A stretch of DNA of 64,000 nt, from positions 868,001-932,000 of the forward strand of contig NZ_QGDO01000002.1 of NCBI RefSeq assembly GCF_003149185.1, read 5' to 3'. Source of the stretch: Sediminitomix flava (GTDB lineage Bacteria > Bacteroidota > Bacteroidia > Cytophagales > Flammeovirgaceae). The stretch's first letter is position 1. Each line of letters starts with the position of its first letter. Under the pieces are notes generated by a model. The model did no database searches, had not been told where the DNA came from, and saw nothing but the letters and a program-made list of their open reading frames with translations. Shown in pieces: positions 3,155 through 17,770 of this stretch. A program made the position numbers and the translations under genes.

Positions 3155-4597
3155 TTAGAATCCTGGCGTTGGATCAACATATTTGTTTCTTTGCGCTTCC
3201 TCTAGTGGGATTGGGAAATAATTGTGTTTGTCCTCAAATTTTTCAGCATAAGGATTTCCCGATGCGACTAGCTGTTGCTTCGTGATTCCCCAACGAGCCA
3301 AGTCATAGAAACGCTGTCCTTCACTTACAAGCTCCAACATGCGTTGCTTGCGGATTTCAGTTCTCAACTCATCGCCAGTCAAACTCACAGATGACAAATT
3401 CGCTCGATTTCTCACTTGATTTAAGAAAGTCAACGCCTGTGTATCTTGCCCCATTTCATTCAATGCTTCAGCCTGCATAAGCAATACATCAGCATAACGC
3501 ATCAAGATTAAATCTACCACACTTCTGTTGGTTGAAATGGCGTTGATCGACTCAACATATTTCAGACTCATCTTAAAATCTGGATTTGGGAAGTCTACAA
3601 TTGTCCCATCAAACTCTTGCCCATGCTCCAAAATTGAAGCCGCTTTACGGATATCGCCATCCTCAAAAGTGCTCGCACAATAATCTGAAATGCTTGCCAT
3701 ATTCCAGCCACCATTATAACCTTGAGGAGCCATAGCTACGCCCAATTGATGGTAAATGTCCAAAGCATCAATTTGCTCTTCTGTATACCCTCTTGAGAAA
3801 ATAACTTCTTCATTTACCTCTGCTGTACCATCAAACATAGAACGGTAAGCAGTACCTCTAACCAATGCATGTCCTGAAATTTGCTCAAAAGCCTTATTTG
3901 CTTCACTCCAATCAGCTTGATATAAATGTGCTTTTCCTAAGAAAGCAAAGGCGGCATTTGCGGTTGCCCTGCCCCAATATTGAGAAGCCCAAGATTGGGG
4001 CAAATGCGCTGCGGCAAACGAAAAATCTTCTTCTATTTGAGTGTAAACTTCATCTTCTGTCGCTAAAGCTTGAGACAATTCTTCTGGGCTTTTAGGAACA
4101 CTCACTCTCAAAATGATATCATGGAAATTTCTCTTCAAATTGAAATGATAAAATGCTCTCAAGAACTTCGCTTCTGCTATAAGTTCATTTTGCTCATTTT
4201 CAGAAAGCATATCCATAGTTGGAACATTCTCAATGATATCATTTGCCATTTTGATACCCACATACCATCGGTTCCACATGTAGGCAGGAACGCCTTCACT
4301 GGCTGTATTTGAGAAATTCACTATTCGTTGCAGATAGCCCCAATCAGTTGTTCCGCTTTCTGGATGAATGTCATCTGATCGGAAATTTTCTGGCAAATAG
4401 AAATATTCATGGTATGTCCAGCCTGTCGTTGAGATGTATGAATAAGTAGTGGCTAGGTATTGTTCTACCGCTTCATAACTTACCCAAATCTGATCGGAAG
4501 TAGGTTGATCTGGGGATTCTTCAGTCAAGTAGTCTTCACAAGATGTAAAACCAATGACCAAAAGCATCGCGCTTATTATATGGATGAATCTTTTCAT
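3155..4597 (-). CDS. susD: SusD/RagB-family glycan-binding outer-membrane lipoprotein
   Basis: A protein of 480 residues with lipoprotein leader and lipobox GFTSC (Cys20), followed by the family opening EDYLTEESPDQPT. Helical TPR-like blocks typical of SusD are visible (LIAEAKFLRAFYHFNL near 140, and the C-terminal RKQRMLELVSEGQRFYDLAR). The C-terminus (YFPIPLEEAQRNKYVDPTPGF) is the usual SusD ending. The role is to cap the SusC porin at the cell surface and capture oligosaccharide. It lies 21 bases after susC in the same operon. The length is normal and no key block is missing. The ligand cannot be read from the sequence; neighbouring enzymes suggest galacto/gluco-configured sugars. Confidence 0.95.
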   Translation of the reverse strand: MKRFIHIISAMLLVIGFTSCEDYLTEESPDQPTSDQIWVSYEAVEQYLATTYSYISTTGWTYHEYFYLPENFRSDDIHPESGTTDWGYLQRIVNFSNTASEGVPAYMWNRWYVGIKMANDIIENVPTMDMLSENEQNELIAEAKFLRAFYHFNLKRNFHDIILRVSVPKSPEELSQALATEDEVYTQIEEDFSFAAAHLPQSWASQYWGRATANAAFAFLGKAHLYQADWSEANKAFEQISGHALVRGTAYRSMFDGTAEVNEEVIFSRGYTEEQIDALDIYHQLGVAMAPQGYNGGWNMASISDYCASTFEDGDIRKAASILEHGQEFDGTIVDFPNPDFKMSLKYVESINAISTNRSVVDLILMRYADVLLMQAEALNEMGQDTQALTFLNQVRNRANLSSVSLTGDELRTEIRKQRMLELVSEGQRFYDLARWGITKQQLVASGNPYAEKFEDKHNYFPIPLEEAQRNKYVDPTPGF

Positions 4598-4618
4598 AAC
4601 ATTAAATTTTGGATTGGA

Positions 4619-7600
4619 TTAGAAGGATACTTGAATACCTGCTGTGAAGGTGCGGAACATAGGGTACGAACCATAGTCAACACCTTGTGTAAGTGCACTA
4701 GAAGGAATTACTTCTGGGTCATAACCAGAATATCCTGTCAGTGTGAAGACATTGTCAGCATTGATATAAGCTCTCAATTTTTGAAGCTTCAAACGTTCAC
4801 ACATACTTTGTGGCAAAGTGTAACCAAATTGAAGGTTTTTCAGACGGAAATATGAACCATCTTCCAAGAATCGGTCAGACATCATATAGTTTCCGTTATT
4901 ATCTACAACTACATTTCGAGGAATGTCCGTATTGGTATTTTCTGGTGTCCAAGCATTCAAAAGGTCAGCACTCATATTGAAGTTTGTATTTGGCTGAGCA
5001 GTATTGAAAGCCGTTACGTTTAGAATTTCATTTCCTGTTACCCCTTGGAAGAATAAAGAAAGATCAAATTGCTTGTATGAAAGATTTAGGTTTAATCCAT
5101 ATTCTAAGGTTGGAAGTGGAGAACCTACAACCGTTCTATCATCAGAATCAATCTGTCCGTCACCGTTTACATCTACATAAATGACATCTCCAGGTTTTGC
5201 ATTTGGCTGAATCTTATTGCCTTCGCTATCCACATAGCGGTCAATCTGTTCTTGAGATTGAAAGATTCCGTTGGTTTTCATCATATAGAACTGACTCGCT
5301 GATTCTCCAACCATCGAAATGGTTTGTGCTGCTCCTGTTCCATAGATTTCATCTCCGTACAATGCTCCATCTCTATCCCCTAAAGAAACTACTTCGTTTT
5401 TCAAGGTTGTCATATTTGCACTTAAATCATACTTCAACTCTCCAATACTTCCTCTGTAACCTAGTTCCAATTCTAGACCTCTGTTAGACATCATTCCTAA
5501 GTTGACCATTGGTGCATCTACGCCAGATGATGGTGGTGTATTCGGATCTTCCAAAAGTAATGATTCCGAGTCATTTTGATAATAGTTGATTGTACCGTAA
5601 ACTCTGTCTGCAAAAAGACCAAAGTCAGCACCTATATTCAATGTTTTTGATTCTTCCCACTTCAGTTGTGAGTTTGCCATTCCTGGTGTTCCAATTCCTC
5701 CGACAGGCTTATTGCCCCATACATACCAATAACCACTCTCTACCAATGCTTGACGGTCATATGCACTCAAGGCTGTTTCTCTACCAAGAATACCATAAGA
5801 TGCTCTAAGTTTTAATTCTGAGAATACATCGCTCATTCCTGTGAAAAACTCTTCGTTATGTAATTTCCAAGCAGCTGATACAGACGGGAAGTTCCCCCAG
5901 CGGTTTTCGCTGCCAAACTTTGAAGAAGCATCTCTTCTAATTGTTGCTTGTACCAAATAACGATCATCATAGCTGTAGTTTACACGACTCATCAAACCAA
6001 AACGAGTTACTCTTTGGAAACCACCAGTACCAATGAAATCACCTGACTGTGCCGCTCCTAAAGATGGATCTAAACCTCCAAAATCTGGGAACATAAATCC
6101 GCCTGTCACATTCATATCTACATTTGCATAGTCGTACTCATAACCTACAATACCTCCCATTACAGAAAGGGAATGCTTGTCAGCAAAAGTATTTGAATAG
6201 GTTAATGTGAAATCGTAATTCAAATCACTCCACTCTGCTCTGTATTCTTGTAAATATGGATTTTGGCGTTGTGTATCTGTTGCCAATTTATACTCTGGGT
6301 AATAATAACGTTGTTGATAAAATGACTTGGTATATCCTACATTACCCGATGCAATCAGATTATCTAAAATTTGATATTGAAGACCGATATTGGCGATCAA
6401 TTGATCTTTTGCAGATTCGTTATTGATCAGTTCTGATTGCCCCACAGGATTGGCTCCACTACGAATGTCGTATTCATCAATATAGCCATAACCACTTTCC
6501 TTTGTTTCGTCATAAATTGGTACAAGTGCCAAAGAGCGTTGCATGTTAGACATGCTCATGGTATTTGTTTCCCAAGTCTGACGAGAATAAGCGACATTTG
6601 GTGTTACTTTCAAGTTTCCTTTCTCAAAAGTAGACTTATATCTGAAGTTGAATCTCTCCGTTCCAGAATTGTCTATCACACCATCTTGACTGAGGTAGTT
6701 CACAGACAGGTTATAGTTAGAAAACTTAGAACCTCCCGACAAGCCTACAGAATAATTTTGGATGGTGGCTGAACTCATAGTAGCATCTTGCCAATCTGTA
6801 TTTGCATAATTTTCTAGATTAAAACCAGAATTCGGCTGTAAGTATAAAGGCAATGAAGAAATTGTACCTTCTGCCATTGAGTTATTGTAAGTCTGTTCTT
6901 TGATCGAATACCATTGATTTGCATCTGCCATATTTAGACGATTCATATCTTCTTGGATACCGGCATACATGGTCACATCAATTTTCATCGGTTGATCTTT
7001 CTTACCCGATTTTGTAGTAACCAACACCACTCCGTTGGCTGCCAAAGAACCGTAAATTGCGGCTGCAGCACCATCTTTCAAGATTTCAAAAGACTCAATA
7101 TCATCTGGCGGAATCATACTGATATCTCCACCCGGAATACCATCGATCACAAAAAGTGGTTGCACATTACCAAAAGAACTCATCCCTCTGATTTTAATAT
7201 AAGGTGCACTTCCCGGAGAACCCGAATTGATAACTGAAACCCCAGAAGTACGCCCTTGAAGCATTTGAGCTGGAGATGTGGCTGCAATTTTATTGGCATC
7301 TGCTGCTTTTACAGTACTTACAGCACTCGAAAGATCACTCTTCTTCTGAATACCATAGCCCACAACTACAATCTCATCCAATTCTTCCGCATCCGGTCGC
7401 AGGTTCACATCCAAGACGGTTTGTTGGGCAGGAAGTATGATTTCCTGTGTCTCTAAACCTACATAAGAAAAGACAAGAACGACCTCTTCCGTGGGCAATT
7501 CCAACTTATACTTTCCATTGAAATCTGTAATCGTTCCTTTGCTTGTTCCTTTCACAGAAATATTTGCTCCAGGAACTCCTTCTCCGCTATCATCTATTAC

Positions 7601-15966: not shown

Positions 15967-16134
15967 AAAATATGTTACAAAAAAAAGAGGTGATTGACGT
16001 ATTTCCTAACATCTCTGAGTTTTAGAACATTAATAAGCGTAAATATGTCATTTATAAAAAAGTAGTTATTAAAAAATGCTTGATTATTTTCTTCATTAAA
16101 TGCGTCTTTCCCCAACTTCTTCGTCTATTTATGT

Positions 16135-16644
16135 ATGAGCACGACTAGTATTTGGAATAACTTCAGAACAGAACTATTTGCCTTTATTATTACGAAGGTG
16201 AATGATAAAGAAATCGCTAATGATATTCTTCAGGATGTTTTTGTCAAAATTCACCTAAAAGCAGGAAGCCTAAAACAAGAAGAAAAACTCACTAGTTGGG
16301 TCTATCAGCTTACTCGAAATACCATTATTGATTACTACAGAAAGAAGAACATTCTGACATACACAGAAGAATTCCAAGATATTTGGGATGATGATTCTGA
16401 ATCTGAAGATGAAAATAAAATCTGTGTCAATTGCATTAATCCATTTATCCAACAACTTCCTCCTAACGATAGAGATGCTTTAGAACAGACCGTCTATGGC
16501 AACATATCTCAGAAAGATTATGCTGAAAAAACGGGACTTTCTTATACCGCTACTAAATCTCGAATACAAAGAGCTAGGGGAAAACTAAAGGATATGTTCT
16601 TGAATTGTTGTTTAGCCGAAGAAGGAAAAAAATGTAATTGTTAG
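16135..16644 (+). CDS. sigZ: RNA polymerase sigma factor, SigZ type
   Basis: A protein of 169 residues with the ECF-like sigma-70 layout. Region 2 (about 5-70) holds DILQDVFVKIHLK and SWVYQLTRNTIIDYYRKKN. A short acidic linker follows, then region 4 (about 105-155) with LSYTATKSRIQRARGKLKDMF. The C-terminal NCCLAEEGKKCNC adds four cysteines; a CC pair after region 4 is a feature I associate with SigZ proteins. No anti-sigma gene is adjacent. The next gene, 75 bases downstream on the same strand, encodes an extremely cysteine-rich peptide, suggesting that metal or thiol chemistry may be the signal. The sigma call is firm; the SigZ subgroup is likely. Confidence 0.85.
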   Translation: MSTTSIWNNFRTELFAFIITKVNDKEIANDILQDVFVKIHLKAGSLKQEEKLTSWVYQLTRNTIIDYYRKKNILTYTEEFQDIWDDDSESEDENKICVNCINPFIQQLPPNDRDALEQTVYGNISQKDYAEKTGLSYTATKSRIQRARGKLKDMFLNCCLAEEGKKCNC

Positions 16645-16719
16645 CATAATTCTGCGTCCTTTTCCAATTAGCTCGTCTCTATTAGTGAAAGAGATTAAAA
16701 ACACTAAATACTTCAAGAT

Positions 16720-16905
16720 ATGAACACACAATATAACTGCTGCGAACCTCAAACAAATTGCTGTACAGAACAAAACTCACAAGCTTGTAAATGTGATTGC
16801 AATTGCGATTGCGATTGTGAGTGCAAAGATGGAAAATGTGTTTGTAAAGACGATTGTGACTGCAATTGTGATTGTACAAATGAAAGTACGAAAAACTGTT
16901 GCTAA
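16720..16905 (+). CDS. Cysteine-rich metallothionein-like small protein
   Basis: A protein of 61 residues, 19 of them cysteine, arranged as NCC, NCC, a central run of alternating C-x-C motifs with Asp/Asn between (KCDCNCDCDCEC, then DCDCNCDC), and a final NCC. There is no signal peptide or membrane helix. The composition suits cytoplasmic binding of a thiophilic metal such as zinc, copper or cadmium, but no known metallothionein family was recognised. It is downstream of sigZ and is followed 25 bases later by a strong terminator, which supports it being a real gene. The antisense frame over the same DNA is explained by the repeated TGT/TGC codons. Function is inferred from composition only. 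Confidence 0.75.
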   Translation: MNTQYNCCEPQTNCCTEQNSQACKCDCNCDCDCECKDGKCVCKDDCDCNCDCTNESTKNCC

Positions 16906-16930: not shown

Positions 16931-16980
16931 AACTAAAGTAATCTATTATAGTCATAGATTACTTTAGTTACTCCTTTTTT
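16931..16980. terminator. Strong bidirectional terminator between sigZ operon and PP2C gene
   Basis: AACTAAAGTAATCTAT (16931-16946) pairs perfectly over 16 bp with 16954-16969 around a 7-nt loop. CTCCTTTTTTT follows on the plus strand. It serves the convergent genes on both sides. Confidence 0.9.
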
Positions 16981-16987
16981 TATAGAC

Positions 16988-17725
16988 TTAAATCTTCATT
17001 ATTCTTATGATAGCAAGATCGTCTGTTGGTACGTGTTCGTACTCTTCGGCAAGCTGTCTCAATCTTTTCTCCAAGAAAGTCTTATTTTCACTTCCCTCCT
17101 TATTTATCAAAAGAAAGTTCAAGATTTCAGATTCAGACAATTGCTTCCCTTTGTTTTTGAGGTTCTGAAAAGTAAAAATACCATCCGTACAAATAGAAAG
17201 GTTCTCAAATGATTTGACAGACAATCTTTGTAATTGATTAGTATACCAAGTATCGAAATCTTCTGTTAAATGATAGCCTAGATAATCTGGTATATTATCC
17301 TGTTCATATTCAACAAACTTTCCATCAATACAAACAAGTCCATCGCCTACCGTCAAAAATTCTGCTTCAGCTTCTTCAGTATTTACAACACCTAGAATCA
17401 CAGTCGAAAGTAACTCATTTATTTCAAGTCCTAATTGATTTTTAATTAAGGCCGTTTCTTTAAAAAGTTCTCTAAAAACCGTTCTAAGTATTATTGCTAA
17501 CTCTTTAGTATCCTTAGACACAAATTCCTCATAAAAAATATTCTTAGCTACCTTTCTTAGAATCTTACCATAAAGCATGGATGCAAAAACCGATTCAGTA
17601 CCCATTGTACAACCATCTAAAACAGCTATTAACTTTTTATTACTAGCTATTTGCTCTACTACTAAAAAATCTTCACATTGATTTGTATGAAAGACGCCTA
17701 TACTTAATGATTCATATACCTTCAT
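16988..17725 (-). CDS. PP2C-like serine/threonine phosphatase
   Basis: A protein of about 245 residues from the Met at 17725; an upstream Met at 17755 would add ten hydrophobic residues and is less likely. PP2C landmarks appear in order: QCEDFL (metal-binding Asp), AVLDGCTMG in place of the usual DGxG, LLSTVILGVV, TVGDGLVCIDG, SICTDGIF and the C-terminal TDDLAIIRI. It should dephosphorylate Ser/Thr proteins in the cytoplasm using Mn/Mg ions. The Gly-to-Cys-Thr change in the second motif is unusual but keeps the acidic residue. It is transcribed toward the sigZ pair and follows uvrA on the same strand, with a terminator between. No partner kinase is visible. Confidence 0.75.
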   Translation of the reverse strand: MKVYESLSIGVFHTNQCEDFLVVEQIASNKKLIAVLDGCTMGTESVFASMLYGKILRKVAKNIFYEEFVSKDTKELAIILRTVFRELFKETALIKNQLGLEINELLSTVILGVVNTEEAEAEFLTVGDGLVCIDGKFVEYEQDNIPDYLGYHLTEDFDTWYTNQLQRLSVKSFENLSICTDGIFTFQNLKNKGKQLSESEILNFLLINKEGSENKTFLEKRLRQLAEEYEHVPTDDLAIIRIMKI

Positions 17726-17770
17726 TAGGTTTAATGATAAATCAAAAAAATACAAGAAGCAATTATTCTA

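Follow-up and report, generated by a model that had tools for sequence, protein, structure and literature searches.

The window that we analysed, a 64,000-nucleotide stretch of the Sediminitomix flava genome, carries on its forward strand a gene for a 169-residue ECF sigma factor, sigZ (positions 16135..16644), and, as the next open reading frame on the same strand, a gene for a 61-residue, metallothionein-like mini-protein (16720..16905) in which 19 residues (31%) are Cys arranged in a CxC series. The sigma frame ends in ...FLNCCLAEEGKKCNC. Both frames were exactly as described in an earlier, sequence-only reading of this DNA, which had also stated that no anti-sigma gene is present; this was borne out by a profile search of the flanking genes (Pfam and NCBIfam), which recognized no anti-sigma gene near the pair. 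Both flanking genes lie on the minus strand. One encodes a TPR protein that also has a weak match to a LuxR-type HTH, the other a PP2C-type phosphatase, and neither product is an anti-sigma factor. The phosphatase gene (PP2C/SpoIIE-like, 16988-17755, minus strand) converges on the Cys-rich gene, and no such neighbor was recognized beside SigZ in the relatives inspected. A terminator-like hairpin followed by a T-run (16931..16969, plus strand, fold z-score -3.5) would close the unit against this convergent gene. No metal gene was found in the window's own flanks, and no known RNA family matched at the locus.

The sigma factor has the Pfam domains Sigma70_r2 and r4_2 (ECF regions 2 and 4). Against the SigZ model TIGR02959 it scored 171.3 bits, above the cut-off of 168.65, while its 180.8 bits against NF007215 (PRK09637) fell below the cut-off of 212; by these profile scores it is a divergent SigZ lying outside the narrower NF007215 equivalog. 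An AlphaFold model (pLDDT 79, pTM 0.44) showed an ordinary two-domain ECF fold in which the linker (pLDDT < 50 at residues 85-96) and the tail (mean of 51 for the last block) are uncertain. We collected SigZ relatives from GTDB contigs, 58 genome relatives, 395 phylum genomes and 291 order genomes, and an alignment of the 65 distinct proteins pointed to two groups of Cys in the window protein. The first is a C-terminal tail, CC(158,159)-x7-C167-x-C169 (16606..16641, plus strand), in which the CC pair is present in 62 of the 65 proteins and the C167 column is Cys in 55; with tail Cys near-universal in SigZ, the tail alone is no predictor of a peptide gene. The second is the motif C97-V-N-C100 (16423..16434, plus strand) in the linker between sigma2 and sigma4, where relatives of the window protein have either CxxC or a single Cys. 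The sequence-only reading had the sigma tail bind metal; we infer that it may do so, and that the likely site also takes in the linker Cys.

Defining a Cys-rich ORF as one of 18-140 residues with at least 20% Cys, on the same strand and at most 500 bp from sigZ, we found such a frame at 31 of the 65 distinct SigZ genes, 24 of them downstream and seven upstream, and the same size and Cys criteria returned a single case (antisense) in ~510 kb of other fetched sequence. A lack of co-occurrence in relatives had been named beforehand among the outcomes that would speak against the proposed unit, and the pairing passed this test strongly. The 24 loci with a downstream peptide span several Bacteroidota families, and their sigma factors form one supported clade of the tree, in which 24 of the 25 rows have a peptide. 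The sole peptide-less row of this clade, L122, has no detectable copy of the promoter described below either. Linker residue C100 was found in all 31 SigZ with a peptide versus 11 of the 34 without one; because the SigZ with a downstream peptide make up one clade, this association is lineage-bound and does not represent many independent events.

Several loci in this collection depart from the window's arrangement. At eight loci (L027, L055, L075, L083, L085, L086, L087 and L089) the architecture is reversed, in that a Cys-rich peptide of about 30-46 residues and CTCxxC type is encoded immediately 5' of sigZ, on its strand; L083 is the eighth such case, its Cys-rich ORF overlapping the trimmed sigma start. 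A SigZ-type promoter lies 5' of both genes in L027, L075, L083 and L089, which suggests a peptide-sigZ operon. L049 has a second Cys-rich gene (~107 residues) on the minus strand, about 330-700 bp past sigZ, and this gene has a third promoter copy of its own. Three loci of one family (L076, L078 and L084) share a conserved 26-27-residue peptide (MKNLTECTCTECDC...) 3' of sigZ, and also conserved flanks, with a 342-residue protein upstream and proteins of 170-178 and 122 residues downstream. L122 and L156, both from Hymenobacter, have a SigZ with no peptide and no detectable promoters. A search of plasmids returned only distant SigZ.

In composition the window peptide is what would be expected of a metallothionein: short, high in Cys, with CxC motifs and few aromatics (one Tyr, and no Phe, Trp or His). 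It matched no Pfam or NCBIfam model, metallothionein models included, at E ≤ 1. The short frame is a real gene under purifying selection. Among relatives, the pN/pS of the mini-genes was 0.08-0.43 in 10 informative pairs, and every Cys column was kept in all 11 pairs while other residues change. Across SigZ loci the peptides range from 19 residues (MNRKDECCGGGCCGGCCND) to 128 residues with 36 Cys, so the pairing has outlasted changes in both the length and the sequence of the peptide. Elsewhere in the genome, one CxCxCxCxC tract lies inside an ordinary 452-residue gene that is not Cys-rich, and on contig C11 these tracts turned out to be codon-type repeats. Very small Cys-rich proteins of this kind (19-128 residues) may be missed by annotation length cut-offs.

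When the upstream regions were compared side by side, we saw that sigZ and the Cys-rich gene of the window each have one copy of the same ECF-type promoter, TGCGTCYTTtt-N10-CGTCT. The copy before sigZ (TGCGTCTTTCCCCAACTTCTT-CGTCTA, 16101..16127, plus strand) has an equivalent in 24 of 24 peptide-linked relatives, and the second copy (TGCGTCCTTTTCCAATTAGCT-CGTCTC, 16653..16679, plus strand) stands before the Cys-rich gene; across relatives the motif reads TGCRTCYTTTT, 10-11 bases, CGTCT. A strict search of the 6.6-Mb genome returned exactly these two sites and no control matches. Allowing one mismatch added four matches, all of them intragenic and antisense, and for this reason we claim no further target in the window genome and reject a wider regulon there. 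This supports the earlier description of the pair as a self-contained unit. At the loci with a downstream peptide the promoter was present before both genes in 24 of 24 cases, with scores of 13-16 out of 16, as compared with shuffled regions in which a score of at least 13 was reached in 0.5% and of at least 14 in 0.03% of cases. Some genomes have off-consensus changes common to both promoters (TGAGTC in L046, TGTATC in L051 and L052), which is what reading of both by a single sigma factor would predict. Phylum-wide, strict matches concentrate around sigZ, a manual tally placing ~24 of roughly 87 within ~5 kb of a sigZ gene, and the motif also occurs beside sigZ in several further phyla, among them Calditrichota, KSB1, Chloroflexota, Acidobacteriota and, in one case, a gammaproteobacterium. 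The sequence-only reading mentioned neither the twin promoters nor the linker Cys; its observation is confirmed as real and conserved, and its interpretation, much strengthened, is supported in part. The view that an unrelated small ORF happens to lie beside a sigma gene draws on nothing beyond the single-genome view, and can be dismissed with near certainty since it is refuted by the co-occurrence, the shared promoters and the purifying selection.

The position of the first promoter leads us to predict that sigZ is autoregulated. CGTCTA lies seven bases 5' of the sigZ ATG (16122-16135), a distance from which we predict a sigZ transcript with little or no leader. Just downstream of the -10 element of the Cys-rich gene, at the predicted transcript start, is the sequence GTGAAA (16685..16690, plus strand), which recurs in about half of the relatives' Cys-rich gene promoters and is rare at sigZ promoters.

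The neighbors of other SigZ genes bear on what the signal might be. Genes of ArsM, ArsI/CadI-like, ACR3, MerTP or SaoE/SO_0444 type were beside 19 of the 34 peptide-less SigZ versus none of 46 control loci; four of these 19 loci had themselves supplied query proteins, and identity to ArsI is as low as 33-38% for seven of the 19 metal neighbors, which fall into one clade in six cases and could be VOC proteins of another kind. At several peptide-less loci (L021, L024, L063 and L074) a SigZ promoter stands in front of the metal gene. Among peptide-linked SigZ, a metal gene was nearby only at Hymenobacter loci, where the Cys-rich peptide occurs with MerTP and ACR3 in the vicinity. On the Hymenobacter plasmid carrying L156, an FRG-domain gene lies 3' of sigZ, with arsC, ACR3 and arsR a few kb away. 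The window genome itself has a divergent SigZ paralog at L136 (G000:C2:620000-630000, 4479-5072, minus strand), 3' of which are an ArsE-like thioredoxin (78 residues) and an efflux permease resembling SaoE/SO_0444; at this paralog's locus there is no strict match to the promoter motif. These gene neighborhoods are most economically read as a sign that a thiophilic metal(loid) is what SigZ responds to, and the Cys-rich peptide would be an alternative output for detoxification. The earlier suggestion of a metallothionein-like output likewise gains support from the peptide's dedicated SigZ-type promoter together with the metal-detoxification neighbors at other SigZ loci, which make it a plausible one.

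A different signal would be thiol or redox stress, in which disulfide stress, from oxidants or electrophiles, would act on SigZ by modifying its Cys and the peptide would serve as a thiol buffer, not a metal store. The vicinal CC and the CxC/CxxC motifs would suit disulfide switching, and at the sister loci L023 and L135, SigZ promoters precede genes for a GST-like protein and a PatB C-S lyase, respectively. It is nevertheless genes for As, Hg and Cu-Zn transport and for methylation that recur at sister SigZ loci, and a peptide with a CxC series and 31% Cys resembles the typical metal chelator more than a redox buffer; we consider this explanation unlikely.

We therefore favor, with a probability of roughly two in three, a two-gene metal(loid) stress circuit that would operate with no anti-sigma factor, SigZ sensing through its own Cys and the peptide sequestering the ion. 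In this circuit SigZ would be kept inactive by its own Cys ligands until a thiophilic ion (As(III), Hg(II), Cd(II), Cu or Zn) binds the linker C97/C100 and the tail CC-x7-CxC and turns it on. Active SigZ would then transcribe its own gene and, from the matching second promoter, that of the adjacent Cys-rich peptide. By chelating the ion the peptide would lower its free level and SigZ would go off again, a negative feedback. What we observed is the pair, its twin promoters with no further strict match in the genome, the conservation, the purifying selection that keeps the Cys, the linker Cys that goes with the peptide and the detoxification genes at sister SigZ loci; metal binding, the direction of the switch, the identity of the ion and the feedback are inferred.

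With autoactivation predicted and no anti-sigma gene in place, SigZ requires a brake, either intramolecular or peptide-based, and its Cys ligands are the best candidate for it. The peptide-based form of the brake would make the peptide a regulator of SigZ, a feedback anti-sigma acting through shared metal or mixed disulfides, with metal sequestration secondary. Such a role would account for the missing anti-sigma gene, for a pairing that is fixed in one clade and for a linker Cys that goes with the peptide, and it would provide the brake that positive autoregulation would need. However, peptides of 19-128 residues with little common sequence beyond their Cys are unlike a specific binding partner, and L049 has two peptides while many SigZ have none; we rate this role slightly below the redox explanation. 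Much less probable again are roles other than metal binding, with the peptide serving as a RiPP-like precursor, as a Cys-rich effector that is secreted or as a leader peptide that senses Cys. Its shortness, Cys content and fast-changing length would fit these possibilities, and the upstream architecture, which puts the peptide before sigZ, could allow it to act as a leader. In the window's architecture, though, nothing conserved lies downstream to attenuate, no conserved modification or export genes adjoin the pair, and the peptide has no hydrophobic signal-peptide stretch.

A broader statement, which we hold at about even odds, extends the metal(loid) circuit to the family: SigZ proteins would be phylum-spanning, anti-sigma-free direct sensors of metal(loid)s that recognize TGCRTCYTTTT-N10/11-CGTCT, and in Bacteroidota a minimal two-gene regulon would have evolved whose sole output is an ORFan metallothionein of as few as 19 residues, under the control of a sigma factor that does the sensing itself. 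With only two promoters involved, the window circuit is testable in one reporter strain, and it might find further use as a compact sensor of metals.

We found no SigZ paired with a Cys-rich peptide in the open-licence literature, and several known systems resemble the window locus in part. SmtA and MymT are, like the window peptide, very short and dominated by Cys with CxC motifs, and metal-type regulation is a likely further point in common. Their regulators are not ECF sigma factors, however, SmtA being under the repressor SmtB and MymT under RicR (PMC10141476), and the window peptide differs also in matching no family model. SigR-RsrA and RpoE-ChrR share with the window the Cys- or zinc-based control of an ECF sigma factor (PMC8999054); in those systems it is an anti-sigma factor, a separate protein with no counterpart encoded at the window locus, that has the sensing Cys. 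Bacillus subtilis SigZ, a positive control of our phylum search, belongs to the same family by profile score and is listed without a function (PMC10141391). The peptide-linked clade differs from it as a branch of Bacteroidota SigZ that has a linker Cys and a peptide gene, and the window locus supplies a promoter motif and a regulon for the SigZ family, together with a signal that can be tested. The circuit would be the first predicted role for this long-orphan family.

The closest likeness in mechanism is to CorE, an ECF sigma factor under metal control through C-terminal Cys and a linker CXC, for which no anti-sigma factor was found (PMC3107203, PMC8999054). CorE and CorE2 of Myxococcus xanthus (former ECF44, now near ECF238) have, like the window sigma, a C-terminal Cys cluster and a Cys pair in the linker, and no anti-sigma gene is linked to them, as is the case in the window flanks and in the relatives inspected. 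Three of the tail Cys are spaced identically (C184-x7-C192-x-C194 in CorE, C159-x7-C167-x-C169 in the window; PMC3107203, PMC8999054), a spacing that relatives of the window sigma do not conserve. The linker of the window sigma has CVNC (CxxC) in place of CXC. CorE also has a C-terminal domain of ~38 residues and six Cys, with four invariant Cys as C-x2-C-x7-C-x-C (PMC3107203), whereas the window tail has four Cys, as C-C-x7-C-x-C, in about 12 residues. The targets studied for CorE are cuoB and copB, and the window's target would be the Cys-rich peptide gene beside the sigma gene itself. The function of CorE and CorE2 is in metal stress, and we propose the same for the window sigma, which, judged by this analogy, probably works like CorE while belonging to a different sigma family, SigZ.
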